This document shows positions 21,759-53,477 of a stretch of DNA of 64,000 nt, piece by piece. This stretch comes from Planctomycetota bacterium (GTDB taxonomy: Bacteria > Planctomycetota > E44-bin39): assembly GCA_004376375.1 (NCBI GenBank), contig SOJX01000087.1:1-64000 (forward strand). Reading direction: 5' to 3'. The notes beneath the pieces were generated by a model. It was not told the origin of the DNA. It did not search any database and saw only the letters and a list, made by a program, of their open reading frames with translations. The number at the start of each line of letters is the position of its first letter. Position 1 is the first letter of the stretch. The translations under genes were made by a program, and so were the position numbers.

Positions 21759-21768
21759 AAGGAAATCA

Positions 21769-23661: not shown

Positions 23662-23668
23662 GTTGAAT

Positions 23669-24289: not shown

Positions 24290-24290
24290 T

Positions 24291-26102: not shown

Positions 26103-26112
26103 GAGAACCAGA

Positions 26113-33723: not shown

Positions 33724-33936
33724 ATGGAAGATCGCTGGCTATCGGTTGACGAAATTGCGGCACACCTTGGCGTCAGCCGAGATACTGTGTATCGATGGAT
33801 CGAACACAAGGGGCTCCCAGCACATAAAATTAGCCGCCTCTGGAAATTCAGCAAAAAGGAAATCGACGAGTGGGGGCGTGGTGGTGGTGTCGACGACAAA
33901 AAGCACCAAAAGGATACGGGCCAGCAGGAATGGTAA
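33724..33936 (+). CDS. Excisionase-family HTH regulator
   Basis: This 70-residue protein has the HTH_17/excisionase pattern (winged MerR-like): W-L-S-V-D-E-I-A-A-H-L-G-V-S-R-D-T-V-Y-R then W-I-E-H-K-G-L-P-A-H-K-I-S-R-L-W-K-F. Related proteins bind DNA and act as regulators or recombination directionality factors. It is the first gene after the promoter and its end overlaps the next gene, so it probably controls the operon. Confidence 0.82.
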   Translation: MEDRWLSVDEIAAHLGVSRDTVYRWIEHKGLPAHKISRLWKFSKKEIDEWGRGGGVDDKKHQKDTGQQEW

Positions 33937-35357
33937 ATAGCAATATGGCTGAAAAGGGGAAAACAGGACACAGGCAAAGACTCAGAGATTGCTTCTTAAC
34001 GGGCAACGCGGAGTCGTGCTCTGATGAAATGTTGTTGGAACTGCTTCTTACCTTTACTATCGGACGCAAGGATGTTTTGCCGCTCGCTCAAGAGCTTATT
34101 CGGGTCTTTGGCAGTCTTTCCCAGACTCTTTCTGCCTCTCATGATGAACTTCGCAAGGTGAAAGGAATCGGGCAGTCATCAACTGTCTTGTTCAAAGTGG
34201 TTGATTTCATTCGATCAGGAACCACGTCCACTATAACAAGACCTTCACTTCCGAAAAAGGTAGCAGGAACTACTCAGCAGAAGTTGTTTGAGAACCTGCC
34301 GGATGAACAAACTCCAGATCAATCTTCTTCCAATACCATGAACAAGAAACCGGTGAAATCGAAAAAACCTTCCGTCTCAGACAAGCAACCAGTAACAAAG
34401 GATGGTGCTCCAACGGCTTCTATCGTGGCAGATATACCTCCAGCGCCTCCGCGTTCATCTCGATCTTCAAAGAAACAACTCGCAGCCCAAAAGAGAACTC
34501 GCCGGAAATTTCAAGTCAGCAGTGGCTACCTTCTGGAATTTGACCAACTTGCTCGCATTCTTCATTTTCTCCTGGAACATCGGGACGCAAAGAAGATTAG
34601 TCGTAAGGCGTTGCAGGAGGATACCGGCCTCGCAGACCGTCAGGTTGCAGCCCTTGTCAGCATGGGAACTGCGATAGGTTTAATCCGACCTGCCGTCCAG
34701 ATATTGACTCCTGTGGGATTGCTCCTTGTAGAACACGATATGTTCATGGAGAAAAAGGGTTCTCTTGAGTGGTGTCACTATGCTGGAGCGGGTGACTCCA
34801 GAAATCTAATCTGGTTTGAAATATTCAATCACCTCCTGGTGGAAACCGCCTCTATGACACAGAATGAGTGGAATGGATACCTGCGGAACCGCTTTTCGGG
34901 GCAGTATACGGACGGGACCATTCGTAAACATGTTCCCAAGGAGGTTCGCTTTGTTGTCGATGCATATTTAAATCGGAATCTCCGTAAACTGGAACTTCTG
35001 CATCGGTCGCCCGATGAACGTCTTTACCGTCGCCGCTACACCAATTTCGTCCCCCTTGTTCTCAGTGCCATGATCTATAATTTCTGCGCCACAAAGGATA
35101 CTCATCTTTCCCAGGTTGGCGAGATGGCTGTCATGCCCGGTTCTCCGGCTATGATCTTCGGGCTTGATGCCGCTTCGTTCCGACAGCAGATCGAGGCGCT
35201 TCACGACCGCGGCTGGCTGCGATACGAAACCACGCACAATCTCGATCAGATCCGTCTCAAGCCTGACTTCTCGGCACTAGAGTTCCTCACGGCATATTTT
35301 GAGGACCGGGAACCGCGCGAGAATTCCAAACCATCACCCGGAGGCACCTTCGTATGA
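33930..35357 (+). CDS. RadC N-terminal (HhH) domain fused to a DUF4007-like domain
   Basis: The product is about 475 residues from ATG 33,930 (overlapping the HTH gene) or 470 from ATG 33,945. Residues about 12-95 match the N-terminal helix-hairpin-helix region of RadC (G-H-R-Q-R-L-R-D-C-F, L-L-E-L-L-L, V-K-G-I-G-Q), but the JAB/MPN domain of RadC is absent. A Lys/Ser/Pro-rich linker follows. Residues about 200-455 resemble DUF4007 proteins (segment G-L-L-L-V-E-H-D-M-F-M-E-K-K-G-S-L-E-W), which occur with DNA-modification defence systems. A DNA-binding subunit of the BREX-like complex is a reasonable inference. The DUF4007 call is moderate. Confidence 0.62.
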   Translation: MVNSNMAEKGKTGHRQRLRDCFLTGNAESCSDEMLLELLLTFTIGRKDVLPLAQELIRVFGSLSQTLSASHDELRKVKGIGQSSTVLFKVVDFIRSGTTSTITRPSLPKKVAGTTQQKLFENLPDEQTPDQSSSNTMNKKPVKSKKPSVSDKQPVTKDGAPTASIVADIPPAPPRSSRSSKKQLAAQKRTRRKFQVSSGYLLEFDQLARILHFLLEHRDAKKISRKALQEDTGLADRQVAALVSMGTAIGLIRPAVQILTPVGLLLVEHDMFMEKKGSLEWCHYAGAGDSRNLIWFEIFNHLLVETASMTQNEWNGYLRNRFSGQYTDGTIRKHVPKEVRFVVDAYLNRNLRKLELLHRSPDERLYRRRYTNFVPLVLSAMIYNFCATKDTHLSQVGEMAVMPGSPAMIFGLDAASFRQQIEALHDRGWLRYETTHNLDQIRLKPDFSALEFLTAYFEDREPRENSKPSPGGTFV

Positions 35358-35818
35358 GTGACCCCGTAAACATGGTTCAACTCGTGAGAGATTTGCCTTC
35401 CCGTCCCCGCGGAAGAGCTTGCATTGTACTCACCCATGAGTATGAGAGCCAAAAGGAATGGGCTGCAGAGTTGGCCCGCCAGACGGATTCCGAACACCTC
35501 GACCTACTGGAACTTTTCGCTCAAGACAAAAACCTCAGCAGCAAGATTGGACAGTTCCTGGTCCCCAGCCTTTTCAATTTTTTGAAAAACCGTAGCCAAT
35601 CGCCTGTTCTGGTTATTTCAGGCATAGAGTTTCTCAAGGCGACGTGGGCAGGCCAGTCGGATGTCGTCGAACAGTTCGCCAGCCATGTGGAAACCTGGAA
35701 TCAGAAGCCCTGCCTGCTTTTTGTTCTTCAATACGACAAGATGATTGCGACCCGCGAGTATCGACGCTTCCGTCAGCACACATTTGTGGTTGACCAGAAG
35801 GAGACATTGGCGTTATGA
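35354..35818 (+). CDS. Small BrxF-like protein without a Walker A motif
   Basis: This 154-residue protein overlaps its neighbours at both ends (ATGA at 35,354; ATGA at 35,815). It has alternating strands and helices like a P-loop ATPase: G-R-A-C-I-V-L-T-H-E-Y near residue 20 and S-P-V-L-V-I-S-G-I-E-F near 77, then P-C-L-L-F-V-L-Q-Y-D. There is no G-x-x-x-x-G-K-(S/T), so it probably does not hydrolyse ATP. Size and place resemble BrxF, the small protein of type 3 BREX. The name is tentative. Confidence 0.45.
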   Translation: MSDPVNMVQLVRDLPSRPRGRACIVLTHEYESQKEWAAELARQTDSEHLDLLELFAQDKNLSSKIGQFLVPSLFNFLKNRSQSPVLVISGIEFLKATWAGQSDVVEQFASHVETWNQKPCLLFVLQYDKMIATREYRRFRQHTFVVDQKETLAL

Positions 35819-38800
35819 AGAATAACGGCCTGTTCAGTTCGCTTTTCATCGAGGAATTGAAAGACAGCGTCAAGCTTGACGACGCGGCCCAAGGGCGTAT
35901 GGCCACACTGGCGCAGACATGGCGCACCCGCAACACCCAGGATACCGAGTCCCTGTGGGAGTCTTTCTTGAAACAGGCATTGGGTTATCTTGAGTTCGTT
36001 CCGCCCGGCAAACCAACCGCTCAAGGCGTTTACCCGCTTTATGAAGACTGGAACTTCACCAAGTGCATCAGCGTCCTCTACCTCGCTCCGCCCGTATCGG
36101 ACATTGACAATACCTCGGTCGGAAGTTTCTATCCCGCTAAGCTTCTTGGGCAGCTTAAGGAACGAAAGCTTAACTGGGGCATTCTGACTGACGGTGCCAG
36201 CTGGCGGCTTTATTCCACCAAGAGTTCCAGACCATATGAAGATTATGTGGAACTTCCGTTGGAGCAGGCCTTGGAAGGATCGGATGAGGCCGAATACGGT
36301 CTTTTTGAGCGATTCTTTCACAAGGATTCCTTTATTGCCGAAGAAACTGAGGGCACAGAGAGCGGGCAACAGGATGAGTCCGCCGGTATCTACAAGTGCC
36401 GCCTTGACCACGATGGGGATCAATCGGAAGAGATTCTTGAAGAGTGGGTCAAACAGCCCTTTCTTGCCCAAGTGGACGAGGTGTTGCAGTACCTCTGCAA
36501 CGGATTCATTTTTGACACCAAGAAGAGCGGAGAGGAATACACCGAAGAGGAACGGGGCGAGATATTCGAAAGCGCCGTAAAACTGATCTACCGCTGCTTG
36601 TTCCTGTTCTATGCCGAGGCCCGCAGGATGCTACCGTCAGACCCAGACAAAGCCGATCTCTACCTGCGGCACTCCATCCAGGCGCTCTGCGAGGAGGCTC
36701 GCAAGTTCCGCTGGGGTGAACGCCGCGACACGGACCAGTACGATCTTTGGAAGCATCTAAAAGGCTTGATAAACGCCGTAAACGACGGTGACCCGGAATA
36801 CGGCATTATGGGTTATAACGGCGGCCTGTTCGATGACGAAGAAGAGCGGTTTCTGGGCCAACATCAACTGCGTAATGATTTCCTCTCCCGGGCACTTTAC
36901 CTGCTCGCGTTTGTCGAGCCTTACGATAACGAACGGGACGACGAATACCCCATACCCTACGAGGACCTGGAGGTCCGTCATCTTGGGGAGCTTTACGAAA
37001 ACATCCTGGAATACACGGTCCAGCTTGCCGACGCCGACCGTATCCGCCGCCGCACTAAAAAGGGTGTGGAAATGCTGCTTGCCTCCCAGGCGACGAAAAA
37101 GGCAGGCGACACCCTGATCAAAAAGGGAGATGTTTACTTCGGAGAGTCTGCCTTGGAGCGCAAGCAGACCGGCTCCTATTACACGCCAGAATCATTAGTA
37201 CGCTTTCTCAACGAAAAAACAATCGTCCAGCCCCTTCGTGAAATCTTTGAGCGGGAATACCGGCAACGCTTCAACGATTTGCTGGAGCAGGCAACCAATG
37301 GGCACGATACAGGAACCCGGCGCGGGGCGGCCCAATCAGCCGCGATGTTGGTCGAGCGTTTTGTCGAAGATGAAGTTTTAAACTTCAAGGTCTGCGATCC
37401 GGCCATGGGCAGCGGTCACTTTTTGGTGGCCGCAGCTAACCAGATGGCCGGGCTGGTCGTCGCCTTGCTCGAAGAAGTGCCCCATGTCAAAGAAATGACG
37501 GTTTCTGTCACCAGCCGTCCCAACGACTGGCGGCGGCGTATCACCCGCCATTGCCTGTACGGCGTCGATCTCAACCCGCTGGCCGTAAACCTGGCCAAGC
37601 TCTCACTCTGGCTCAACTGCTTTGCCATCGAACACCGGTTGACGTTTCTCGATCACCACCTGCGTTGCGGAAACAGCCTGATCGGCATTCGCTCTCTCGA
37701 TCAACTCGCTTTCATCCCGGAACGCAAGAAAGAAAGCAAGAAAAAGAAGAATCCGCAGAGATTGCTTTTTGATAACAGCGACCTTTCGAGTGTTCTGGCG
37801 AATGCCGCGAAGAACGTAGCCTCAATAACACGGATTGATGAGGACGACACCGACACCCAGAAAGCCGTGCTGGATGACGCCCTAGCGACAACATCAGGCT
37901 TACGCCCTTTGGCGAACCTTTATACGGCATATTTGATGGATCCTGGTATTCCGGCGGATGATTACAAGGAGATATTCGAACGGCTCGCCAAAGGCAAATC
38001 GGTTGCCGGAACTTTGAATCCAGCACTGCCTGAGATATTAGAATCGGTCGAGGCTTATCGGGAATGGCACCTTTTTTATCACTGGCCGCTGGAGTTTCCC
38101 GATGTTTTTGGTCCAGATGTGGTGGGCGGGTTCTCAGCAACCGTCGGTAATCCGCCATGGGATATTGTCAAACCCAACTCCCAGGAGTTCTTCTTGGATT
38201 ACGATCCCAAGTTCCGTTCCTACAAAAAGCAGGAGGCCAATCGGGTCTCCAAGAAACTGATGGCTGACAATACGGCGATTGCTGAAAAGTGGGAAAAATA
38301 CCGTGACGGATTCGCAGAGCAGAGTGCCTATTTCAAGGAACCTCAGAGTTACAGTGCCCTAGGAAAAGGCGACATTAATACTTTCAAGCTCTTCCTGGAA
38401 CAGTTTTTCACCGTGCTTAATGACGGCGGTCGCATGGGCATTGTGGTGCCTAGCGGGATTTATACCGACCAAGGCTGTCAGCCCTTGCGGGAACGGTTCT
38501 TCAACCAGAGCCGTACTGAGTTTCTCTACTGTTTTGAGAACCGTAAACCAGTATTCAACATACACCGCAGTTTCAAGTTCGTCTTGTTCGGCACGCAAAA
38601 AGGCGGAGAGTCTGACCGGTTCAAGTGTGCTTTTATGGAGCATGACCCGGAACGGTTACAGGTTATTGATGACAAAGCACTCCGAATGAGCGTGAAGCAG
38701 GTCAAGATGTTTTCGCCTGATACGTTGAGTGTCATGGAGTTCAAGAGCCAGCGGGATATTGATATTTTTTCGCAACTCAGACGATGTCAATTTTCTTTCG

Positions 38801-39789
38801 GTTATCAAAGTATCACTGACTATTCTTTCGACATCATAAGAGAGTTTGACATGTCAGGCGATAGCCATCTATTTCATTCCAACTTAACAAATAGCCGAAT
38901 GCCCCTCTATGAGGGGGGCTTATTTTGGCACTATGACTCATATTTTTCTTCTCCCAGATATTTTCTTGAAGAAACGGATATAAGGGAACATTTACCCAAG
39001 CGTTACCCCGGAAGTAACTGGCAAACATGTGATGACTATAAACTTGTGTTCAGAGCAATTGCATCTCCCACAAATATACGGACATTAACTACAAGTATTC
39101 TTCCAAAACGAGTTGTTTGTAACCATAATGTGAGCGTTGTTCTAATAAAAAGCCTTTCCGATTCTCCCCTATTCATATTGTTGAAACTAATGAGTGTGGC
39201 GAACTCACTCATTTTAGATTGGTTTGTACGTATACAAGGGACAACGTATTTGAAATTTCAAAATATTTGTTCACTGCCATTACCCGAAAACATGCAAACT
39301 ATTTCTGACATTGAATTGATAGCCAGAGCATCAAGATTGCTTTGCACAAATGCTGATTTTGGGCCATTATGGACTGATGTTTTTTCCACCAAATGGCAAT
39401 CTTCCTCTTTCTGGTACCCATCCTCCGCACCCATCGACACCTACGGCCCGGCCCACGAGCAGGAGATACGACGCCGCTTGCGGGACGAAGCCAAAAACCT
39501 GACACCAGCATGGGGTTCGCACTGCGGGGTCCACGACCAGCTGCCCGACCGGCGGGACACCGGCGATAGAGCCCAACTCCGATCCGAGATCGACGCCTAT
39601 GTAGCGCATCTCTATGGATTGAACAGGGATGACTTCGCCTACATCCTTGACACCTTTCCGGTGCTCAAAAAGAAAGAGAAAAAGGCATTCGGCGAGTTCA
39701 TGTCCAAGCGCAAATGCCTAGAAGAGTATGACAGAATCGGGAAGATTTTAGTCAACGAGCAGGAGAATCAGAATGACACACACTATTGA
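35815..39789 (+). CDS. pglX: PglX-like adenine DNA methyltransferase
   Basis: This 1,324-residue protein has the layout of BREX PglX and type IIG enzymes. The N-terminal 170 residues resemble the nuclease-type domain of IIG enzymes (W-G-I-L-T-D-G-A-S-W-R-L-Y) but the usual E/D-x-K core is not visible. Methylase motifs: C-D-P-A-M-G-S-G-H-F near residue 527 (AdoMet) and G-N-P-P-W near 778 (catalysis). The region 38,750-39,390 is markedly A+T-rich and holds the target recognition part. In BREX, PglX methylates host DNA at a non-palindromic adenine site. It overlaps the DUF262 gene by 17 bases. Confidence 0.85.
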   Translation: MKNNGLFSSLFIEELKDSVKLDDAAQGRMATLAQTWRTRNTQDTESLWESFLKQALGYLEFVPPGKPTAQGVYPLYEDWNFTKCISVLYLAPPVSDIDNTSVGSFYPAKLLGQLKERKLNWGILTDGASWRLYSTKSSRPYEDYVELPLEQALEGSDEAEYGLFERFFHKDSFIAEETEGTESGQQDESAGIYKCRLDHDGDQSEEILEEWVKQPFLAQVDEVLQYLCNGFIFDTKKSGEEYTEEERGEIFESAVKLIYRCLFLFYAEARRMLPSDPDKADLYLRHSIQALCEEARKFRWGERRDTDQYDLWKHLKGLINAVNDGDPEYGIMGYNGGLFDDEEERFLGQHQLRNDFLSRALYLLAFVEPYDNERDDEYPIPYEDLEVRHLGELYENILEYTVQLADADRIRRRTKKGVEMLLASQATKKAGDTLIKKGDVYFGESALERKQTGSYYTPESLVRFLNEKTIVQPLREIFEREYRQRFNDLLEQATNGHDTGTRRGAAQSAAMLVERFVEDEVLNFKVCDPAMGSGHFLVAAANQMAGLVVALLEEVPHVKEMTVSVTSRPNDWRRRITRHCLYGVDLNPLAVNLAKLSLWLNCFAIEHRLTFLDHHLRCGNSLIGIRSLDQLAFIPERKKESKKKKNPQRLLFDNSDLSSVLANAAKNVASITRIDEDDTDTQKAVLDDALATTSGLRPLANLYTAYLMDPGIPADDYKEIFERLAKGKSVAGTLNPALPEILESVEAYREWHLFYHWPLEFPDVFGPDVVGGFSATVGNPPWDIVKPNSQEFFLDYDPKFRSYKKQEANRVSKKLMADNTAIAEKWEKYRDGFAEQSAYFKEPQSYSALGKGDINTFKLFLEQFFTVLNDGGRMGIVVPSGIYTDQGCQPLRERFFNQSRTEFLYCFENRKPVFNIHRSFKFVLFGTQKGGESDRFKCAFMEHDPERLQVIDDKALRMSVKQVKMFSPDTLSVMEFKSQRDIDIFSQLRRCQFSFGYQSITDYSFDIIREFDMSGDSHLFHSNLTNSRMPLYEGGLFWHYDSYFSSPRYFLEETDIREHLPKRYPGSNWQTCDDYKLVFRAIASPTNIRTLTTSILPKRVVCNHNVSVVLIKSLSDSPLFILLKLMSVANSLILDWFVRIQGTTYLKFQNICSLPLPENMQTISDIELIARASRLLCTNADFGPLWTDVFSTKWQSSSFWYPSSAPIDTYGPAHEQEIRRRLRDEAKNLTPAWGSHCGVHDQLPDRRDTGDRAQLRSEIDAYVAHLYGLNRDDFAYILDTFPVLKKKEKKAFGEFMSKRKCLEEYDRIGKILVNEQENQNDTHY

Positions 39790-40852
39790 TTCTAAAAAAA
39801 TCGAAAAAAGATTCAAGAAAGCACAAGATAGCTTGGTGCTTCAGTCTGCTGATTTGTCGCTGGAAACAGTGGCCGAAATGGTAGCGAAGAAAGCCATTGA
39901 AATAGATCCAAAATACCAAAGGCGTGAACGCTGGAGCCGCGAGAAACAGTCGGCGCTGATTGAGTCATTCATCCTCAACGTGCCTATTCCGCCAATCTAT
40001 CTGGCAGAAGATGACTATGGTAACTATTCAGTTATTGACGGCAAACAAAGACTGACAGCTATCTTTTTCTTTATGAAAAAGAAAATGCGTCTTCAGTCTC
40101 TTGAGGATTTTAAGGAAATGGAGGGAGCCGCATTTGAGGAACTTCCCAATTCTATTCAAAATGCTTTGAATATTCGACCCTATGTTCGTGTCGTGACTCT
40201 ATTGAAACAATCCGATCCCGATATTAAATACGAGGTATTCACACGTTTGAATACCGGTGGGGAACCACTCATACCGCAGGAAATTCGCAACGTGGCATAT
40301 AGAGGCAAAGTTAATGACCTTATTTTTAGCCTTGCTGATAACGATTTTCTGAAAAGGCAACTTAAGATCAAAGATCACCGCTCAAAACCATATCGGATGA
40401 TGATTGACGCGGAGTATGTACTACGCTTCTTTACTCTACTGGAGCAATGGAGGGATTTTTCAGGAAAAATGCGTGTTTCGATGGATGTTTTCATGAAAGA
40501 ACATCAGCACAAAGACAGAGATTTTGTAGATAATTTGCGCAAACAATTCAATACTTCAATTCAATGTTGCAAAGAGATATGGGGGGACAATGCCTTTAAG
40601 CGATACATGAACGATCAGTGGCGCAACCTAGTTCTCGCAGGAATGTATGATGCCCAGATGCTTGGAGTATCACTGCTCAGCAACGCTGAACGTAAGCGGG
40701 CCGTGCAGAACAAAGAACAGATTATTGCCAAGACAATCGCTCTGTTAAAAAACGATGAACAATTTGAGACCTCTGTACGCCAATTCACATCGAATCCGAT
40801 GAGAGTTCGATACAGAATCGAAACCATGCTTGAAGCATTAAAAACGGCATAA
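39773..40852 (+). CDS. DUF262 protein (ParB-like, GmrSD-type N domain)
   Basis: This 359-residue protein carries the DUF262 motifs: D-P-K-Y-Q-R-R-E-R-W-S near residue 44, V-P-I-P-P-I-Y-L-A-E near 68, and S-V-I-D-G-K-Q-R-L-T-A near 88, corresponding to the D-G-Q-Q-R nucleotide-dependent nuclease site of the GmrSD group. The DUF1524 HNH half is absent. It is A+T-rich compared with its operon neighbours and forms a pair with the following HEPN gene. Confidence 0.8.
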   Translation: MTHTIDSKKIEKRFKKAQDSLVLQSADLSLETVAEMVAKKAIEIDPKYQRRERWSREKQSALIESFILNVPIPPIYLAEDDYGNYSVIDGKQRLTAIFFFMKKKMRLQSLEDFKEMEGAAFEELPNSIQNALNIRPYVRVVTLLKQSDPDIKYEVFTRLNTGGEPLIPQEIRNVAYRGKVNDLIFSLADNDFLKRQLKIKDHRSKPYRMMIDAEYVLRFFTLLEQWRDFSGKMRVSMDVFMKEHQHKDRDFVDNLRKQFNTSIQCCKEIWGDNAFKRYMNDQWRNLVLAGMYDAQMLGVSLLSNAERKRAVQNKEQIIAKTIALLKNDEQFETSVRQFTSNPMRVRYRIETMLEALKTA

Positions 40853-40857
40853 AACAT

Positions 40858-41781
40858 ATGAGCGCACAAGCTAATTTTCTCAGAGGGATGCATGGATTTC
40901 GTTTGGCGCAACAACATGAAGCTTTAGTTGAAAAGGCGCCAGACGAAAGAGAGCATAACCTTCGCTCAAAGGCTTTAAGAAATGGCATTGCCATTATTGG
41001 ATTCTCTATTCTTGAACATTTTATCAGAGCACGGACTGGAGAGTTGCTGCTTTCATTCGATCGGGTTAGCATTTCCTTTGAAGACTTGCCTAATAAAATT
41101 AAAGAGATTGCTACGAAGGGTGCAGTAAAAGGAATTGCGGCCAGAATGAAATATAACGATAACGCTATTGCTTTCACGCAAACCGAATCAGCGATTATAG
41201 CATCATCCCTAAAGACGACTTATCAAATATCCCAATACTCAATTGGGTGGGATGGTTCTAATCTTAATGTAGATGACATCGGTAACATTTTCAAATGCTT
41301 TAACATTGAGGCTGGGTGGCTTGCCATTGACACTTTATCCGGTAGACTTGACCTGGCAATTTTATCTTCAAAAGAGGCTTTTAAAAATGCGGCTCAGCGA
41401 CGGCATGATGCTGCTCACAATATTGACGCTGAAATACAACCCGGGCACCTAGAATCCTTTGTCAGAGAAGCATATGTAATAGCACTTGGATTCGATTTGC
41501 TATCGAGTACAGCATATCATAAGATCTATATTGGTGATAATAATTACTTGAATAGTGTTAATAAGATTACAGCCGGGGATATTGCTCTGCGAACGATAAG
41601 TCTTGATGGGAACAGATGGAAGGAGTTTCGTGAAGGCGGAAGGAGAGCGGTAAGAACAGCAGAGACAAAAGAGGAATTGTGGCCTAACGCTCTAGTGCGC
41701 GCAGGAAATAATAATGAGTTTTTGTTGTGTATGGATTCAGATGGCTTCCCATCTGAGTGGGAATTCCCCTCACTTTTATGA
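40858..41781 (+). CDS. HEPN-domain protein (RiboL-PSP-HEPN-like)
   Basis: This 307-residue protein starts six bases after the DUF262 stop. A helical bundle runs from about 20 to 225 and contains A-A-Q-R-R-H-D-A-A-H-N-I near residues 180-190, with the R-X4-H motif of HEPN ribonucleases. The remaining 80 residues are beta-rich. HEPN proteins of this kind are commonly found beside DUF262 proteins in defence islands. The pair interrupts the BREX gene order and is likely a nested second defence unit, by inference. Confidence 0.7.
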   Translation: MSAQANFLRGMHGFRLAQQHEALVEKAPDEREHNLRSKALRNGIAIIGFSILEHFIRARTGELLLSFDRVSISFEDLPNKIKEIATKGAVKGIAARMKYNDNAIAFTQTESAIIASSLKTTYQISQYSIGWDGSNLNVDDIGNIFKCFNIEAGWLAIDTLSGRLDLAILSSKEAFKNAAQRRHDAAHNIDAEIQPGHLESFVREAYVIALGFDLLSSTAYHKIYIGDNNYLNSVNKITAGDIALRTISLDGNRWKEFREGGRRAVRTAETKEELWPNALVRAGNNNEFLLCMDSDGFPSEWEFPSLL

Positions 41782-41889: not shown

Positions 41890-44800
41890 ATGAGCAAAAT
41901 TAAAGAGGTCGTGAAACTGAAATCCGGCTACGCGAATTTTGTGGAGCTGAAAAGCGCTTTTGAGGCGACACAGGAGAATGCGGACCGGATGGCCATGTAC
42001 CGACCGACCAAGGCTCACCGCGTGGCGTTCGAACGTATTTGTCGAGGGCTCTATCAGCCAAATGACAAGAAGTTCTATCTACTCAGCGGCTCCTACGGAA
42101 CTGGTAAATCGCACCTGTGCCTGATGACGGCAAACGTTTTGAGCCGGTCCAGCGGTGACCCGGGAATTGCCGGATTCCACGAGAACTACGCCAAGCTCGA
42201 TCCCGAGAAGGCCAAGCTGATTAAGAATATCCGCAAGGACGGCCAGTACCTGGTGGCGATCTGTGACTACCACTCGGGGCGGCATTTTGAAGATGTTGTG
42301 ATGAAGGCGGTCTTTGGGGCTTGTGAGACCAAAGGCTTGAACACCGGGGTGGAAACGGAGTTTGACGAGGCGGAACACCAACTGGCCGAGTGGGAGAAAA
42401 AGGGCGATAAGGGCGGTATCCGCAATTTCTACCAGGACTTTAGCAAAGCGCTTGAATCGGTCGCACCTGGGCTTACCATGGATCAGCTTCGTACCGGGCT
42501 CAAGAACTACGACTCAAATGTGCTTGAGAAATTCCGTACCACCTTCAAGGAAATGATGGGAGGCGTTGAGTTTCAGGCCCAGGCCGGCAACCTGATTCCG
42601 ATTCTCAAAAAATTGGTTAAAAGCCAGGCTTTCAAGAAACGGTTCAAGGGGCTGGCCATCTTCTTCGATGAATTTCAATATACATTGGAGAATCGAGCGT
42701 ACGCTAAAGATGTACTGCATGGATTTATGGAGACTATTTGCAAAAGCGAACCGAACGTGCTTTTTGTGGGATGTATTCACAAAGACTTCAAATCTTACGC
42801 AGACCGTTTCAGCAAAGACGATGCGGCGGTCATGAGTGCCCGTATCACGCAAGTTGATCTGCTCAACGAAGGGATCGAGGAGATCATCGGGGCTATCGTC
42901 GAAACAGATAAGCAGTGCAATGCCTGGAAAAAAGAGATCGCACCCAAGACGGGCGTCTTTGATCAATTGGTACCGCCATGTAAGTCACTTGACCTGTTCC
43001 CCTGGATTGAAGATGTAAACCGTATTCGAGAACGGGTGCTGGAGGATATCTACGGCGTGCATCCCATGGCCCTGTCCTGCTTGCTGAACCTTTCATCTGA
43101 AATCGGTTCGGATGCGCGCAGCACCTTTACCTTCTTCTCAGGCGATGTGGGCGGAGAAAAGGGTTCATACGCGGACTTTATCGAGAATGCTGAGGTGACG
43201 GTGGCTGGCGGGAAGCTGAACCTGTACACGGTAGATCAGCTGTTTACGTTTTTCAAAAAGGAACTCTCGCAAAAGAATCCGGAACTGCGGGAACGACAAC
43301 GGCAGTTTGTCAATGGCTTCTACGCCAGCATAGACGCCCTGCGAAAGGCCGCCAAAGGAGAACTGCTGAGATTCCATGAGGATGAACGCATCCAAGTGCT
43401 CAGGACAATCCTGATCTACCAACTCTGTCAGATTCCGACGAGCCTGGAAAACATCCAGTTTGGACTATATTGCCTGAGCAAGTCCGAAAAAACCCAGGTA
43501 AAGAAATACTTAAAGGATTTGGATAAAATGGGTGCTGTGTTCCTCCGACAACAGTCGAAAACTTATGAGCTAGCTGCAAGCACTGGCGAGGACCCCTATG
43601 ATCTGATAGAGCGCTACGTAACCGATACCAAATTGCATCCATCGGACACGGTAACAGCTTTCATGGAAGAGGCCAGCGGAAAGCGTCTTTCGGATTATTC
43701 CGAAGCCAAGGGATACAACCTGCCCTTTGGGGAGGACAAACGCTTCCGTACCCGTTTTGTCCGCGCAAAGGATCTCGGGGATGCGCTTTGGCAGGAAATC
43801 CGTATGGACTATGCAGAGAGTCGTAGCAAACCAGCGAAGAGCTTCGAAGGAACTCTCGTCCACGCACTATGCGAGGACGAAGGCGAAATCAATTTAGCAA
43901 GGGAGGCGGCCAAGACCATTTCGGATGACAATGTGGCCCTGGCTGTGCCGCACGCACCGCAACCCTTTTCGGAAACCCTGCTGCAAGTGAAAGCATGCCG
44001 CCATTACCTGCCACCAAACGAGGCGGGGAAAATAAGCGCCCAGACCGAATCACGGCTGCGCGACATCCTTGAGAATCCTAAAGACGGATACCTGCCAACT
44101 CTCCAGCGCGTGTTTAGAGACATCGTGGAAGGCAGCGGAGCCTGCTGGTATTGGCAGGGAGAGAAAATCCTAGTGGACAAACCTAAGCAATCCCACAAAC
44201 CTGCGGACATGCTATGCGATGAGTTGTTCAAGAAACGCTGCCGCATTAAACATCCAGACTTGAATTTCTGCCACGACGTAAAATGGTGCACTGGGAAGAA
44301 CGTCGCATTGAAGCAGGCTGTAGGCGTTCTGCTGGAAGCAGAAAGGGTTCTGATTGATAACGGTAACCCCGACAATCACGGCGAGAAAAGGTATTTGGAG
44401 AAAGTCCTGCTGAAAGGCGCAGGAGCCCTTAAGAAAATCGATTCTGAAGGCGTGGTTTCTTATTTTGCGTGCGAGACCGATCCCGCCAAGCTCCACAATG
44501 ATTTTCCGGTATTCAAAGAACTGTGTGACCGGCTGGCAAATCTCAATCCTGGGAAAATATTCTCGGTTGGCGCTTTTCTTGAAGATGCAAAGGATACGCC
44601 CTATGGCGTTGGTGGTACACCTTTGATGCTATCGCTGGCTCATGTCATTCGGGCCTATGGCGAACGATTGATTGTGTACAAAGACTCCACCATGATGGTG
44701 GAGCAGCCTCTTCGGTCCTATGACGACTTGGTCAAGATCGTGTCAGACCCTGCCGCCAAGACAGTCTTTGTGGTCCGTGATATTTCACAGGCCCAAATCA

Positions 44801-45933
44801 CCCTCATCGATCTGGTCGCCAAAGCAGTTGACGCACCGCCCCTGAAGCATGGCGAAACCCGATCTCTTAACTCCGCCTTTGAGACGCTCAAACAATGGTG
44901 GAGCAGTTTGCCGGCTGTTGCCAAAGTGATCAGTCTGTATGAAAAAGGGCGAAAGGTGCGTTTGACCAGTCTCAAAAATCTGATGGACGGATTGACCGGC
45001 AGCGTGGACCGATTTGATTTCATGCTCAAGCGATTGCCTGCGGTTTACAGCGGCGGTTCAGTTGGCGACACACTCACGGAAAAGGACGCCAAGACCATCT
45101 GTGATGCCTTTGCCGAGGATGTAACACTTCTCAACTCGGGCGAACAGAGTGCACAAGGCCAGGTGGCGCAGGCTGTTTGTGATATCTACGGTGCCAAAGG
45201 CGACATGATCGAATGTGAAAATGTGGTCAGCAAATGGTACTCAAACTTGAATCCAAGCCAACGCGATCCACAAAAGTGCGACCACGAGGATGCGAAACAG
45301 TTTCTTGTGCGCCTGGCCGATCAGTCCGTCAGTTTCAGCACGAAGATAGTTAAGCTTCTGTCGAAAGATTTCGGATTTGGAGCGGTAGCGGAGTGGACAT
45401 CGCTTCACGTCAAAGACTACGTAGCCAAGCTAAAACAGGCCAAGGCAGAGATTGATAAAGCCAAGCCGGTCGTCCATAAGCCGGCTGTGGATGAGGGCGT
45501 ACATGAAATTCGGGAATCACAGGAGATGTATATCGAAATCCCCAAAGGGGCCGCTCGATTGATCTACACCCTGGATGGAAGAGACCCCCGTCACTCGGAC
45601 AATGTCCAAAAAACCGACAACAAGCTTGATCTCGTCAGTCTTCTTAAAGACCGGCCCAATGTGAAGATAAAAATGCGGGCCGTGGACCAGGACGGCAATG
45701 CCAGCGATGTTGTCAGTGTCGAGTTGGTCAGCAAGGAACGAAAATACGAGATACAGGTGGAGTCGGACATCTTCGGCGAAAAGGAAGCGACGTTTAAGTG
45801 TCCGGATGACACGGAAGGATTGGTGGCCGTCCTAAAATCCGTTATCAGCTATGGAGTGAAAAAGAACCTGTTGAGCACTGATATGGCCAAGAAACTTGAA
45901 ACGCTACTAAGCAACGTCACCAAGGACAAATGA
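41890..45933 (+). CDS. brxC: BrxC-like large P-loop ATPase
   Basis: This 1,347-residue protein has Walker A L-S-G-S-Y-G-T-G-K-S near residue 65-72 and Walker B A-I-F-F-D-E-F near 254, as in the BrxC/PglY (DUF6079-type) ATPases of BREX. Residues about 1,200-1,280 form a small beta domain with I-Y-T-L-D-G-R-D-P-R-H-S-D-N, resembling the CHB_HEX_C-type domain (Y-T-x-D-G-S-x-P) of sugar-binding enzymes. It restarts the BREX order after the DUF262/HEPN pair with a 108-base gap. It probably couples ATP use to target recognition. Confidence 0.82.
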   Translation: MSKIKEVVKLKSGYANFVELKSAFEATQENADRMAMYRPTKAHRVAFERICRGLYQPNDKKFYLLSGSYGTGKSHLCLMTANVLSRSSGDPGIAGFHENYAKLDPEKAKLIKNIRKDGQYLVAICDYHSGRHFEDVVMKAVFGACETKGLNTGVETEFDEAEHQLAEWEKKGDKGGIRNFYQDFSKALESVAPGLTMDQLRTGLKNYDSNVLEKFRTTFKEMMGGVEFQAQAGNLIPILKKLVKSQAFKKRFKGLAIFFDEFQYTLENRAYAKDVLHGFMETICKSEPNVLFVGCIHKDFKSYADRFSKDDAAVMSARITQVDLLNEGIEEIIGAIVETDKQCNAWKKEIAPKTGVFDQLVPPCKSLDLFPWIEDVNRIRERVLEDIYGVHPMALSCLLNLSSEIGSDARSTFTFFSGDVGGEKGSYADFIENAEVTVAGGKLNLYTVDQLFTFFKKELSQKNPELRERQRQFVNGFYASIDALRKAAKGELLRFHEDERIQVLRTILIYQLCQIPTSLENIQFGLYCLSKSEKTQVKKYLKDLDKMGAVFLRQQSKTYELAASTGEDPYDLIERYVTDTKLHPSDTVTAFMEEASGKRLSDYSEAKGYNLPFGEDKRFRTRFVRAKDLGDALWQEIRMDYAESRSKPAKSFEGTLVHALCEDEGEINLAREAAKTISDDNVALAVPHAPQPFSETLLQVKACRHYLPPNEAGKISAQTESRLRDILENPKDGYLPTLQRVFRDIVEGSGACWYWQGEKILVDKPKQSHKPADMLCDELFKKRCRIKHPDLNFCHDVKWCTGKNVALKQAVGVLLEAERVLIDNGNPDNHGEKRYLEKVLLKGAGALKKIDSEGVVSYFACETDPAKLHNDFPVFKELCDRLANLNPGKIFSVGAFLEDAKDTPYGVGGTPLMLSLAHVIRAYGERLIVYKDSTMMVEQPLRSYDDLVKIVSDPAAKTVFVVRDISQAQITLIDLVAKAVDAPPLKHGETRSLNSAFETLKQWWSSLPAVAKVISLYEKGRKVRLTSLKNLMDGLTGSVDRFDFMLKRLPAVYSGGSVGDTLTEKDAKTICDAFAEDVTLLNSGEQSAQGQVAQAVCDIYGAKGDMIECENVVSKWYSNLNPSQRDPQKCDHEDAKQFLVRLADQSVSFSTKIVKLLSKDFGFGAVAEWTSLHVKDYVAKLKQAKAEIDKAKPVVHKPAVDEGVHEIRESQEMYIEIPKGAARLIYTLDGRDPRHSDNVQKTDNKLDLVSLLKDRPNVKIKMRAVDQDGNASDVVSVELVSKERKYEIQVESDIFGEKEATFKCPDDTEGLVAVLKSVISYGVKKNLLSTDMAKKLETLLSNVTKDK

Positions 45934-48353
45934 GGAGCTGGAGTGTAACCGTGGGAAACGAAAACCAGGTATCAATCAGCTATATCGGCAATCTGGCGCA
46001 CACTCCCCCCGATGATGTCCTTCTGGTGGAGAACGACGGGGATTATGTGCGAGCGTGCCATACGCTGTCGCACCGCGAGAAATCCGATATCGGCCTGAAG
46101 GTGTGGGTGCGTTCAAAGAACCACTTTGCCTGGCTGAGGGATTTCACCGAACAGATTGACTGCTCATCCAAGTTTGAGGAAAAAACGCCCCGCCTGGTGT
46201 TGGCCGAGCAGTGGAATGTACAGATACCCGAGTGGCTGACCGATACTGATGTTCTCGACTTTAACCTTTTAGATATACCTGTAGATTCTCAGAAACAGAC
46301 CGATTTTGAAAACCGTTTACTCATACATCTCCTGGGAGCCGCCTTTCAGCCGGACATGCTTATTAGTGCCCATCTTGTCGATGTGATCAAGGCGCTCGTC
46401 AGTGATGAAGCAAAAGCAGCATTTAAGAAATACCCGGTACTGCGCCGCTGTTTCGAGACCAAATGCGAGCAATGGGCGAAGAGGAGCAGCGAGACATGGG
46501 TAAAGGACATCTGCAGACAGCTCCCTGAAAATTCGAATGAAGTCTGGCAGTGGCTCAGCTTGTGGGTCGGCTTGCACGGCTATCCAGAGAAACTGCTAGA
46601 ATACGTGCTGGCTCCAGAGCAGGTTCTGCTTATACGGAAGGTTCCTCCGGACGTGATCAACGATTTGCCCTTGGAGTCTACGGCCAAGGAACAGATGCTA
46701 ACCCAGATTGAACTGCTCTTTAAAGAAACATGGGAGCAGGTAACGTCAAGTGACATGTTCCGAAAGGTTGTAAGATGGACTTCAGGAAGACTCCTGAAAG
46801 AGTATCATTTCATTTCGAGCATTCTCAGGAATAATCGATTTCCACCAACTGAAGAAGATGTTCAGGAGGTGCAGACAAAATTCAGATATTGCCCAGGCGT
46901 GAGCGAAAACCAATTGAATGCCCTTAGATACTGCGTTAAGCCCGACCGCCCAACCCTGCTCGGGCTGGAAGAAGAATGGAGTAGCGTTGAATGGATTCGA
47001 TGGACAGCTGAGGAATACGTGCCTTACCGTACTTGGCAAGTGCATAACGGCTATTACGATGAAGACCTGGAGCAGACGGTAGCACGCTTCACGGATTGGT
47101 ATATTGCCGAATATACATCGATCCATAAAGATCCCGACCTCAGCCTGACTCACTGCTTGAGGGTCCTTTCATCGAACCGTTCAGAAAATGAGTTTTCGAT
47201 AATACTTCTTATTGATTGCCTTCTCTTGGCTTTTATGGATATCCTGGACGATGCGCTTCGCAACGTGGGTTTCAGCCGCCATAATTTACACTACCGCTTC
47301 GCTGCGCTGCCAACCATTACGGAATACAATAAGGCTGCGCTCCTGAGCGGAGAGTGGCAGGAGAAAACCGGGAGCTATGAGGCCATTCTCAAAACTCGCG
47401 CCAACACCGATTGGGGTGGTAAACAGGTCGTATACCTGAGCAATCTGAAATCGATGTTGGAAATGGCGGCCCCTCAAGAGGCGACCATTGTCGTTCTCAA
47501 CTTCGTTGACGGAGATGAGTTGCTCCACTCGGACGTGGAATCCAAGAATATCACGTATGAGGATGAGTTGCATCGCCTTTTTACGCGCATGGCTGAATCG
47601 GTAAGCAAGTTGTCGCAAGAGTGGTCCGGGCCAAGAGAACAGTTAAGCGTTTATGTAGTCACCGATCATGGTGCCTGTCGCATTCTCGAAGAAGAGAAAC
47701 GATCCTTTGATTCTACAGTCGTTAACAGGCTGTTTGCCAACGAGAAACACCGGTTTTCGGCCGTAGCCGAAGATCAGATAGATGAGATACCTGAAAACTT
47801 GTGGGTGCTGGGGCATCGATTTAAACGGCCGTTTATCTCGGAGAACACGGTCTATTTCTTGCCCAAAGGGCACAATACCGTTCGCCAGGCAGGCAGGGTG
47901 AAAGGCTATATACACGGCGGTGTCACTCCTGAAGAGGTCATCGTTCCGGCAGCACAGTACAAATTGGTAAAGGCGGCTTGGAAAACACTTGCCACGCGTT
48001 TCCTCAACCTGGACCAAGTGAGAGAAACCGGCAGAGCCAAATTCTATATCCAACGAGTCGTAACGTTGGAGGTCGAGATACAGAACCCGAACCCCTCTGA
48101 CGTCCGTGTTTTCCGAGCAAGTATAATGTCGCCTGAAACCGACCTCAAGAGCTGTGAAACCGTAGTAATACCGGCAGGGAGCGTGAACACACTTCAAATG
48201 AACTGCTATTTCAAAAAGGCTGCCTTGGGAGAAAGAAGCCTGGAGATAGAGATTGCATATGAAATTGCCGGCAATCAGCACACGCTCCCCTTAACGCTTG
48301 AAAGTGAGTTCAGATCAGCCATTGCAAGCGGATTCAGCCTGAGGGACCTTTAA
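45930..48353 (+). CDS. pglZ: PglZ alkaline-phosphatase superfamily protein
   Basis: This 807-residue protein overlaps the BrxC stop (ATGA). It has the PglZ domain motifs in order: I-L-L-I-D-C-L near residue 424 (metal/nucleophile region), L-P-T-I-T-E-Y-N-K-A-A-L-L-S-G near 455, V-V-T-D-H-G near 576, and Y-I-H-G-G-V-T-P-E-E-V-I-V-P near 660. The C-terminal 120 residues are an immunoglobulin-like beta region. PglZ is the signature gene of BREX and is required for protection. Confidence 0.88.
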   Translation: MRSWSVTVGNENQVSISYIGNLAHTPPDDVLLVENDGDYVRACHTLSHREKSDIGLKVWVRSKNHFAWLRDFTEQIDCSSKFEEKTPRLVLAEQWNVQIPEWLTDTDVLDFNLLDIPVDSQKQTDFENRLLIHLLGAAFQPDMLISAHLVDVIKALVSDEAKAAFKKYPVLRRCFETKCEQWAKRSSETWVKDICRQLPENSNEVWQWLSLWVGLHGYPEKLLEYVLAPEQVLLIRKVPPDVINDLPLESTAKEQMLTQIELLFKETWEQVTSSDMFRKVVRWTSGRLLKEYHFISSILRNNRFPPTEEDVQEVQTKFRYCPGVSENQLNALRYCVKPDRPTLLGLEEEWSSVEWIRWTAEEYVPYRTWQVHNGYYDEDLEQTVARFTDWYIAEYTSIHKDPDLSLTHCLRVLSSNRSENEFSIILLIDCLLLAFMDILDDALRNVGFSRHNLHYRFAALPTITEYNKAALLSGEWQEKTGSYEAILKTRANTDWGGKQVVYLSNLKSMLEMAAPQEATIVVLNFVDGDELLHSDVESKNITYEDELHRLFTRMAESVSKLSQEWSGPREQLSVYVVTDHGACRILEEEKRSFDSTVVNRLFANEKHRFSAVAEDQIDEIPENLWVLGHRFKRPFISENTVYFLPKGHNTVRQAGRVKGYIHGGVTPEEVIVPAAQYKLVKAAWKTLATRFLNLDQVRETGRAKFYIQRVVTLEVEIQNPNPSDVRVFRASIMSPETDLKSCETVVIPAGSVNTLQMNCYFKKAALGERSLEIEIAYEIAGNQHTLPLTLESEFRSAIASGFSLRDL

Positions 48354-48370: not shown

Positions 48371-50392
48371 ATGATGTCGTTTGAACGCAAAGCAAAAGAC
48401 TACTATGGTGAGGTTGTCATCAACAAAGGTCTCATGGGAAGGGCCGGATTCGGTGCTCGTGCGATACCGGTCTATGTCGGTGAATGGATCATTAGCCAGT
48501 TCATGGACGGAGATGAACTTACAGATGACGGCAGAACCGAGATTGTCAATACGATCTCAAAATACTTACCGCAAAAAGCGGACAAGAATATGATCCTGAA
48601 TCGCCTTATGGAGCAGGAAGAGGTTCGCATTCTGGATGACTTTCGGGTCAACGTGAACCTGGAGCGCCACACGCACGATCTAAGCATTCCGCTACTGGAT
48701 GTTCGAAATGGGATGGTGCAAAAGGATATCATTGACAACAACCCCATGCTCCTAAAAACGGGCATGTGGGGTCTGGGAACATTGCGGTATGTGCCCCCTG
48801 ACGGCGAGGACGTGAAGAAAGGCCAAATATGGATGGTCGAATTCAAAGCGTTCCAAACCCCAGGGGTCGATTTAGACTATTTCCGGGATTCGCGTAAACA
48901 CTTCGATATAGCTGAGTGGATAGACCTTTTGGTATCGAGTTGTCAATTCAATCCCGACGTTCACAGGTTGTCGCAGAAACTTTTGCTCCTCAGCAGAATA
49001 ATCCCCTTGGTCGAGCCAAGGGTCAATATTACAGAACTGGCACCGAAAGGTACTGGGAAGTCGTTCGTGTTCGATAATATCAGCCGATATGCAGCCGTGA
49101 TACCAGGCGGGAAACTCTCGGCACCTGCTTTGTTTTTCAACAGCAACACAAAGCAAATCGGTCTCATTCCACGATATGATGTTGTTGTAATCGATGAAAT
49201 CCAAAAAATTCATACCGATGCGTCCGGCGAGGCCATGGCTGCCCTTAAGATGTATCTTGAAAGTGGCAGATATCGTAGAGCAACGGGAGACATGGGAACG
49301 TCAGAGTCCGGCTTTGTGATGCTCGGCAATATCAGGTTGGGTGTCAACCGGTTGCCACTGTATGAAAGCGACGGGATATTCAAGGAACTGCCAGCCGCCC
49401 TTCAGGAATCGGCATTCATAGATCGAATTCACGGGCTGATCGAAGGGTGGTTCATGCCGCGTGTGTCTCGGAACACCCCATCAAAATCATTTGGATTCAA
49501 GGGAGATTTCTTTAGCGAAGTACTGCATGAACTGCGTGTCGACCTGCGGTATGCGGATTATGTCTCCCAGAGTTTGCACCTCCCGCAATGTGAGGATATG
49601 CGGGATAACAAGGCTATCTCCCGGCTAGCGGAAGGCTTTCTGAAACTGCTGTTCCCCGATCTCGAATTAAGCGAGGAAGAATTCATTTCCTACTGTGTGA
49701 ATCCCGCGGTTCGCATGCGTCAGCAGATTCGAGATGAACTGTCGAAAATCGACCAAGAATACAAGTGGATCACCATAAAAAGTCAGATTCCGGATGAGTT
49801 CCAATTATCCCATCCGGATGAACGGCCAAACCCGGAGGAAGAAGCGAAAAAAGTCGATCCTCTGGCACCAGATCGTATTCCTGAAGAAAATACTCTGGAT
49901 CTTATCGAGGGGCAGAAGGGAATCTCATTTGAAAAGCTTTTCCTTCCTTATATCAAGGATGCCAAAGCGATCAAGATTTATGACCCATACATTCGACTGC
50001 AGTATCAAATATACAACCTGATGAGTTTCTGCGAGATCCTGGACCCGCCGGTAGAAATGCTGAAGGTCGATCTCGTCACGGCATGTGACGCCTACCAAGA
50101 AACTGATCTGAGAAGGAAGCTTGACGAACTGAAAAAGGGACTGAGGCCTGATTGTATAGAGTTAAACTATGTTTTCGACAACAATCTTCATGACCGGTGG
50201 ATAGAAACGGACACGGGCTGGAGAATTATCTTAGGCCGTGGCCTCGACATATTCCAAAAACCGGAGGATAAGTTCACCTTGGGATTCTTGGATCAGACGA
50301 AACGGAAATGTAAAGCAACAACGATTACTTATACACGATCACATACAGGGAATATCTCAAATGGACCCAACGAAGGCGAGGGAACACAATAA
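48371..50392 (+). CDS. brxL: BrxL-like AAA+ ATPase with C-terminal MIT_C (MITD1-type) domain
   Basis: This 673-residue protein has the BrxL N-terminal and ATPase regions: L-A-P-K-G-T-G-K-S near 222-231 and V-V-V-I-D-E-I-Q-K near 268-276, with D-x-G-T-S-E-S-G and L-x-E-S-A-F-I-D-R sensor segments. From about 508 to 665 the sequence is MIT_C: I-Y-D-P-Y-I-R-L-Q-Y-Q-I-Y-N, then N-L-H-D-R-W-I-E-T-D-T-G-W-R-I and G-R-G-L-D-I-F-Q-K-P, matching human MITD1's phospholipase-D-like end. The Lon-like protease domain of standard BrxL is not seen. AGG site precedes ATG 48,371; 17 bases follow PglZ. Confidence 0.82.
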   Translation: MMSFERKAKDYYGEVVINKGLMGRAGFGARAIPVYVGEWIISQFMDGDELTDDGRTEIVNTISKYLPQKADKNMILNRLMEQEEVRILDDFRVNVNLERHTHDLSIPLLDVRNGMVQKDIIDNNPMLLKTGMWGLGTLRYVPPDGEDVKKGQIWMVEFKAFQTPGVDLDYFRDSRKHFDIAEWIDLLVSSCQFNPDVHRLSQKLLLLSRIIPLVEPRVNITELAPKGTGKSFVFDNISRYAAVIPGGKLSAPALFFNSNTKQIGLIPRYDVVVIDEIQKIHTDASGEAMAALKMYLESGRYRRATGDMGTSESGFVMLGNIRLGVNRLPLYESDGIFKELPAALQESAFIDRIHGLIEGWFMPRVSRNTPSKSFGFKGDFFSEVLHELRVDLRYADYVSQSLHLPQCEDMRDNKAISRLAEGFLKLLFPDLELSEEEFISYCVNPAVRMRQQIRDELSKIDQEYKWITIKSQIPDEFQLSHPDERPNPEEEAKKVDPLAPDRIPEENTLDLIEGQKGISFEKLFLPYIKDAKAIKIYDPYIRLQYQIYNLMSFCEILDPPVEMLKVDLVTACDAYQETDLRRKLDELKKGLRPDCIELNYVFDNNLHDRWIETDTGWRIILGRGLDIFQKPEDKFTLGFLDQTKRKCKATTITYTRSHTGNISNGPNEGEGTQ

Positions 50393-50439
50393 GCCAGACA
50401 GACTTTATCGAGAGTATGGACCCTAAGAAAGGATTATTA

Positions 50440-52314: not shown

Positions 52315-53477
52315 TGAATGAAGGTCAGGATAAGATAAGGATCGAAGAAACATTCGCCCGGTTACAAACTAACCGTGAAGCTTTGCCGTGGCCGGAACGC
52401 CGCGCGCTTGCACAATCTTTGGCTGAAACACTGATATCGGAAGGCGTCTCTGAACCGGTCCTGGCCTTGGTTTTCCTGCTGGCCGATGACCCGAAGTGGG
52501 AGGTGCGCCGTGATATCGCGGATTGCCTCCTGCTCATCCCCGAAGACGACTTCCCGCGCCTTGCAGCCAAACTTTCTGCCGACAGCAACTCGTTCGTGCG
52601 AAAGGCTGCCGAGCGAGCACTGGACCGTCGTCGACGCGGGCAACGTGCCGAGGCGAAACGGCAACGGGGTCTGGATGGAGTTCAATCTCAGTACGTTGCG
52701 TTGGAGAAAATACACGGCAAGGTGGCAGCAGAGAAGGCCCGCCACATGGCCGAGCGACTCTACGACATTCTGGTCGGGGCGACGGTCCATGACATGCGCG
52801 GAATCATGACGCCCCTAAAGTCCAGCGTGACGACCCTCTTGAGCCATCTGGAGGAGAGCAATCTGGACCCGAAGCTATTCCACAAAAACCTGATCAAGAT
52901 GAAGGACCGCATCGCCATCCTTGAGTGGTTGCTAGAGGATATGCGTCAATATTCCCAACCCACGCCACTCGAGCGCAGGCGCGAGCGATTCGCGGAGGTC
53001 GTTCACAAGGCGCACGATATTGTAAAGGACAGATTCAAAGCCACTGATCGCGCCCCCGAAGGCATCCTAGTAAACATCGATGTGCCGGAAAATATTACTC
53101 TTGAAATCTCGCGTCAGCAAATCATAGTGGCAATCGCCAACATCCTGCAGAATGCCTACGAGGCCTTTGAAACCAGACCGAATACATTCCAGAAGGGCAC
53201 CATAGAACTACGTGCACGGACGCTAGACAATGCACGCAGCGAGCATGCAGTGCAAGATAACGGTATGGGGCGCAGCAAAGAGGACCTGGCCAAGGTACGG
53301 TTATTTGTTCCCGGTGGATCGTCAAAAAAGCAGCATGGCTCTGGACTCGGCCTGCCCAACGCAAGAAAGAGGGTCATTGACCACGGAGGTGATCTTGCCA
53401 TCGACAGCGAAGAAAACCAAGGAACAACCGTAACGATCACACTGCCCGTCGAGACAGAAGGGCAGGATCAGCGATGA
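52314..53477 (+). CDS. Soluble histidine kinase with HEAT-like N-terminus
   Basis: This 387-residue protein has no membrane segment. Residues about 45-110 look like HEAT repeats (D-P-K-W-E-V-R-R-D-I-A-D-C-L-L then S-N-S-F-V-R-K-A-A-E-R-A-L). A phosphoacceptor-type helix has V-H-D-M-R-G-I-M-T-P-L near residue 160. The HATPase domain (about 255-385) has N-I-L-Q-N-A-Y-E-A-F, V-Q-D-N-G-M-G and G-S-G-L-G-L-P-N-A. It senses something inside the cell, perhaps through the ATPase encoded just upstream. Overlaps the regulator gene by four bases. Confidence 0.8.
   Translation: MNEGQDKIRIEETFARLQTNREALPWPERRALAQSLAETLISEGVSEPVLALVFLLADDPKWEVRRDIADCLLLIPEDDFPRLAAKLSADSNSFVRKAAERALDRRRRGQRAEAKRQRGLDGVQSQYVALEKIHGKVAAEKARHMAERLYDILVGATVHDMRGIMTPLKSSVTTLLSHLEESNLDPKLFHKNLIKMKDRIAILEWLLEDMRQYSQPTPLERRRERFAEVVHKAHDIVKDRFKATDRAPEGILVNIDVPENITLEISRQQIIVAIANILQNAYEAFETRPNTFQKGTIELRARTLDNARSEHAVQDNGMGRSKEDLAKVRLFVPGGSSKKQHGSGLGLPNARKRVIDHGGDLAIDSEENQGTTVTITLPVETEGQDQR

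Follow-up and report, generated by a model that had tools for sequence, protein, structure and literature searches.

The locus described here lies on the forward strand of a 64,000-nucleotide stretch of a Planctomycetota contig (SOJX01000087.1), to which we refer as the window, and consists of a core of six genes and a variable cargo slot (Table 1). The core is complete and has the same order in four other genomes (L048-L051), with 43-92% identity, and it is partly present in further contigs, where contig ends interrupt it. The content of the cargo slot, between the genes for the methyltransferase and BrxC, varies between genomes, with Schlafen AlbA proteins in L048 and L049, an AAA_21 ATPase and a DUF4276 protein in L050, and an empty slot in L051. 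In the window, the DUF262 protein of the slot is close to NsnA of the Menshen system (E 1e-73), and searches of 21 and 246 genomes from the phylum recovered no NsnC; the C-terminal tail of the window BrxL matches PADLOC NsnC weakly (E 0.0032). The 154-amino-acid protein of the core gave no match in hhalign comparisons with Type-1 BrxB and with a 166-amino-acid protein of Thermomicrobium. In Desulfoferrobacter (L052:5679-6908), the pglZ gene is interrupted by a transposase-like open reading frame of ~410 amino acids, and given that pglZ is split, this system is probably broken.

Table 1. Features of the BREX-related locus, with positions in the window
Feature	Position	Strand	Evidence
UPF0758_N (RadC-type HhH) + DUF4007 (SspB/BrxP-like, BrxA-type DNA binding), core gene	33870..35357	+	profiles, relatives
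154-aa protein at BrxB/BrxF-type place, core gene	35354..35818	+	position, relatives
Eco57I/MmeI-type N6-adenine methyltransferase (DPAMGSG, NPPW), core gene	35815..39789	+	profiles, motifs, relatives
Cargo slot: DUF262 (NsnA-like, Menshen) + weakly HEPN-like gene	39773..41781	+	profiles, relatives
BrxC/SspC-like P-loop ATPase, 1347 aa (Walker A GSYGTGKS), core gene	41890..45933	+	profile, motif, relatives
PglZ, 807 aa (LLIDC, TDHG, HGG motifs kept), core gene	45930..48353	+	profiles, motifs, relatives
brxL with MIT_C tail, 673 aa	48371..50392	+	ORF, Pfam, NCBIfam
BrxL_N, residues 11-140, 92 bits	48401..48790	+	Pfam
BrxL MCM-like AAA+ ATPase, residues 154-465, 336 bits	48830..49765	+	Pfam
MIT_C / PLD-fold tail, residues 517-655	49919..50335	+	Pfam PF16565, PDB match, predicted fold
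DPYIR motif, residues 538-542	49982..49996	+	alignments
H607-x-R609-x4-D614, equivalent of the HKD motif	50189..50212	+	alignments, profile-profile alignment
GRGLD, residues 622-626, approximately at the place of GSxN in HKD enzymes	50234..50248	+	alignment; sequences read side by side

The last gene of the core encodes a BrxL of 673 amino acids. Its N-terminal part is BrxL according to Pfam, with AAA+ motifs (Walker A APKGTGKS, Walker B VVVIDE) and without an MIT domain, and the protein scores 437 bits, above the cut-off, with the NCBIfam model of BrxL (TIGR02688). The model of Lon-tailed BrxLs (TIGR02653) reaches 252.8 bits against a cut-off of 628 and matches only residues 5-461. Beyond the ATPase, the MIT_C model PF16565 is matched with 148.2 bits (cut-off 25, E 2e-43) over profile positions 1-141 of 142, bearing out an earlier note on this DNA, which had proposed from the sequence a BrxL homologue that ends in MIT_C. 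The four motifs that it had listed are present in the order given, namely DPYIRLQYQIYN (538-549), LHDRWI (606-611), GWRI (616-619), and GRGLDIFQKP (622-631), and the interval that it had assigned to the tail, 49890-50392, encloses the domain proper. The tail domain is kept in 14 homologous loci and is therefore no assembly artefact; NCBI names such proteins either "BrxL" or "MIT C-terminal domain-containing protein."

In order to place the tail structurally, we compared it with known structures by sequence and by predicted fold. In a phmmer search of the PDB with the window protein, only human MITD1 was recovered (2ymb_A, E 1.7e-28; 4a5z_A, E 9e-28), the next match having an E value of 0.12. 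Residues 486-673 were modeled with AlphaFold2 (mean pLDDT 76; the loop at fragment positions 142-161 is poor), whereas a full-length model was too poor for use (pLDDT 42). With the model of residues 486-673, Foldseek again placed MITD1 first (4a5z_B, E 7e-16, TMt 0.77, 34% identity), followed by the phospholipase D (PLD) superfamily enzymes phosphatidylserine synthase (PSS), Streptomyces PLD, and TDP1, in agreement with the earlier assignment of the region to a MITD1-like domain of PLD fold. Human MITD1 shares with the tail the HxR, DPYxR, and RGLD motifs of its PLD-fold C-terminal domain but begins with an MIT domain and functions together with ESCRT-III, neither of which applies to the window BrxL. 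The label "ESCRT-type" merely reflects the member of the family that was described first; the window BrxL has no MIT or ESCRT part.

The tail stands where the standard BrxL has its Lon-like domain, as had been suggested: in a Type-1 BrxL of Acinetobacter (L080), used as a control, Lon_C is found at the equivalent place (E 2.5e-12). No Lon profile matches the tail region of the window BrxL, and no Lon structure is among the 50 Foldseek matches listed for the tail model, so that, together with the MIT_C match, a Lon-like tail is ruled out. The match to Lon that the earlier note had named as a refutation was thus looked for and did not appear. Lon-tailed BrxLs (L080; PDB 8EMC type) have the same BrxL_N and AAA+ core, which in L080 is ~27% identical to that of the window, but differ in carrying Lon_C for MIT_C.

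To gain an idea about the state of the PLD-type site, we examined the conservation of the tail. H607, D608, R609, and D614 are invariant among 15 close homologues. A wider set of 30 MIT_C domains was drawn from human MITD1, from fusions with proteins other than BrxL, and from BrxLs of several phyla including Type 1; no domain of this set deviates at H607, R609, R623-G624-L625-D626, or R645. Position 614 is Asp in 25 of these domains, Asn in 4, including MITD1, and Ser in a single broken gene; the latter belongs to a Hymenobacter plasmid (L037:13418-15459), where brxL is in pieces. Asn at this third position is tolerated in the PLD superfamily, TDP1 having an HKN motif. In an hhalign comparison of a 25-sequence MIT_C profile with a profile made from PLDc_2 proteins of the phylum, the H-D-R-x4-D of MIT_C aligned with H-A-K-x4-D of PLDc_2; the match is a moderate one (E 2.5e-5, probability 75%). 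This indicates an HKD site in which Lys is replaced by Arg. The earlier note had asked whether the active residues of the PLD fold are kept, and the answer is yes for His and Asp and no for Lys: the canonical H-x-K-x4-D is absent from the tail, and all 30 domains have Arg, a conservative variant, in its place. Since we know of no HKD enzyme that works with HxR, catalysis by the tail is inferred. That the tail acts on a phosphodiester, as had been proposed, is nevertheless plausible, because H-x-R-x4-D stands at the position of the HKD motif.

The locus belongs to neither Type-1 nor Type-4 BREX. None of the Type-1 markers BrxA (DUF1819), BrxB (DUF1788), PglX, and Type-A PglZ was found among the proteins of the locus, and the window PglZ scores far under the Type-1 cut-off. 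Its gene order agrees with that of Type 4 as represented by a Thermomicrobium plasmid (L077; DUF4007, small protein, BrxC, PglZ, BrxL), with SspB- and SspC-like profiles and grouping BrxL cores, the PglZ and SspC matches being weak. However, PAPS reductase and cysteine desulfurase are absent from the window operon, which has an Eco57I-type methyltransferase instead, and the window BrxL is tailed, whereas Type-4 BrxLs have no C-terminal extension according to the main text of a recent survey (Rakesh and Krishnan, NAR 2026 gkag035; PMC12839542). Membership in either type is thus ruled out by a missing defining feature. A related arrangement is found on an Abditibacteriota plasmid (L076), with a related methyltransferase, DUF4007, a small AAA protein, BrxC, PglZ, and a tail-less BrxL of 485 amino acids. 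In the portions of the survey's main text that were covered, we found no Type-4-like arrangement with a methyltransferase described, and the window locus appears to be an undescribed, conserved six-gene relative of Type-4 BREX that is based on a methyltransferase.

The exchange of the Lon domain is in itself not new. In its main text, the survey reports 1,030 of 2,913 Type-1 BrxLs, i.e., about one-third, in which an "HKD-endoDNase" that has an HRD motif takes the place of the inactive Lon domain; it credits an earlier Menshen paper for this tail and describes the HKD variant as specific to Type 1 (PMC12839542). In our own data, a tblastn search of plasmids with the window tail yielded 25 records, mostly annotated as brxL, and the MIT_C loci of Rhodococcus, Hymenobacter, Rhodovulum, and Methylomonas lie within recognizable Type-1 BREX operons. 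The three Type-1 BrxLs scanned with Pfam (Thioflavicoccus, Rhodococcus, and Rhodovulum) all carry MIT_C with the motif HxRx4[D/N]. It is therefore very probable that the HKD tail published for Type 1 is MIT_C, given that the Type-1-side BrxLs of our tree, apart from a single Thermus protein, carry either Lon or MIT_C and no other PLD domain. While the HKD-tailed Type-1 BrxLs of the survey share the architecture of the window BrxL, the core of the latter lies in a lineage on the Type-4 side, so that the novelty seems to be the presence of this tail in a BREX lineage other than Type 1.

To assess how often the tail was acquired, we built a tree from the cores of 48 BrxLs, leaving out the tails; this was a quick search with SH-aLRT support only, midpoint rooting, and some long branches. 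The window BrxL groups with 12 relatives that carry MIT_C, with the tail-less L076 as sister, followed by the tail-less L073 and the Type-4 L077. The Type-1 BrxLs form the other side of the tree, with 24 Lon tails, 7 MIT_C tails, and one long-branched Thermus protein with a different 98-amino-acid tail (L078); here, the MIT_C tails are split between two clades that lie among BrxLs with Lon tails. The branches with good support require the MIT_C label to have changed at least three times, which could also reflect fewer gains combined with losses. The simplest reading is that an effector module was attached repeatedly, once onto a tail-less BrxL and twice in place of Lon. A tree of the MIT_C domains themselves recovers these three groups again, albeit with low support. 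Within this sample, the PLD domain of human MITD1 is nearest to the tails found in a single clade of Type-1 BrxLs (L034:14977-15462; L067, L110), with 47% identity over 150 columns and 140 bits, compared with 102 bits against the window tail. This proximity suggests that the ESCRT factor MITD1 and a tail of phage defense systems share ancestry. MIT_C was also found joined to a dynamin GTPase domain in a Thiodictyon plasmid protein (L038:9628-12471), as well as C terminal of an MZB (MrfA-type Zn-binding) domain and of an IF2_N domain (L016:1-1932 and L039:9437-10486), and we found none in phages or viral contigs. ABC transporters (L017-L019, probably also L117-L118) gave matches of 20-27 bits, which were discarded as false positives.

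How BREX arrests phages is still disputed, and the standard BrxL has no catalytic tail. Nucleases of the PLD superfamily with a single motif act as dimers. On duplex DNA, BrxL assembles in an ATP-dependent manner into double rings, in which the C-terminal domains meet at the equator and the DNA is exposed inside a chamber ~80 Å wide (PMC10164562). A PLD domain with one motif depends on a partner to complete its site, and such a tail-to-tail ring would supply it. We consider it most likely, with slightly better than even confidence, that the tail is an effector of the HKD/HRD type that cuts DNA where the two rings of BrxL meet. As in the solved BrxL, the window protein would build a ring on DNA from its N-terminal and AAA+ domains, and the C-terminal domains of two such rings, opposed at the equator, would pair and thereby unite two HRD motifs in one PLD-type site. 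DNA without the host methyl mark, which would here label self, may be recognized by a complex of the methyltransferase, BrxC, and PglZ and then loaded into the ring, to be nicked or cut within the chamber. With this tail, BrxL would no longer be a motor or clamp for DNA but an effector nuclease, which works alongside PglZ. The conserved HRD motif and the matches to MITD1 and PLD enzymes in sequence and modeled fold point to such a nuclease, and the occurrence of MIT_C in three BrxL lineages, once beside tail-less relatives, is the pattern that a mobile effector module would be expected to show. The authors of the survey independently take the Type-1 form for an active endoDNase, as stated in its main text (PMC12839542). 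A BrxL with an active-site motif makes the question of whether BrxL is an effector accessible to a single mutant, H607A.

The Arg found at the place of the catalytic Lys in every member counts against this reading and fits a different one, in which the tail is a noncatalytic structural or phosphate-binding module that joins the two rings, its His/Arg pocket grips the DNA backbone or a nucleotide, and PglZ is the nuclease. Lon and MIT_C are exchanged at one and the same place in BrxL, the motifs of PglZ are intact at the window locus, and the Lon-like tails of Type-1 BrxLs, which have no Ser-Lys dyad, mediate ring dimerization (PMC10164562; main text of PMC12839542). Nevertheless, a pure dimerizer has no need of an invariant His, Arg, and RGLD across such divergence, let alone of the Asp/Asn position, which is kept too, and Type-4 BrxLs work without any tail. 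We regard a purely structural tail as possible but doubtful. A conserved pocket alone is no proof of catalysis, though, since MITD1 keeps the His and Arg and yet is described as membrane binding.

This property of MITD1 (reported by Hadders 2012), the likeness of the tail to it in sequence and fold, and the dynamin fused to MIT_C are in line with the suggestion of the earlier note that the tail acts on membranes, in which case it might take BrxL to the cell envelope along with the phage DNA that it has trapped. We found no support for this in the tail, which has no hydrophobic segment and contains 23 Lys and Arg versus 24 Asp and Glu; this composition is no argument to exclude membrane binding either, because the MITD1 domain has an equal make-up. 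Against a membrane role stand the conserved HKD-type pocket and the fact that nearly all bacterial MIT_C copies found are on BrxL, a ring that encircles DNA, and such a role is improbable and the least favored of the readings discussed in full. The breadth of the PLD superfamily, with TDP1 among the fold matches, would also allow the tail to hydrolyze or transfer a phosphodiester other than genomic DNA, such as a nucleotide signal, a phospholipid, RNA, or a protein-DNA adduct. Given that in BREX loci the tail is joined to a ring that encircles DNA, DNA is the more parsimonious substrate, and we give such alternatives very little credence.

The locus might represent an undescribed, methylation-based BREX subtype that is sister to the phosphorothioate-based Type 4, in which a mobile HRD nuclease was fused to a tail-less BrxL independently of the two events in Type 1, and the tail of MITD1 might descend from one of these phage-defense tails; we put this forward as a tentative and, as a whole, rather unlikely scenario.

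Additional genes surround the locus. Directly downstream of brxL (50416-54541), the window encodes a TrlF-family-like ATPase, a HEAT-repeat histidine kinase, and an HTH response regulator, of which no clear equivalents were seen beside brxL in related loci. At the end of the island (54605-55978) lies a radical SAM protein with a PqqD-like N terminus that is weakly viperin-like according to PADLOC. Upstream of the core, at 21745-26811, open reading frames resemble, as judged from sequence alone, contractile-tail or baseplate genes of a phage tail or a related structure.
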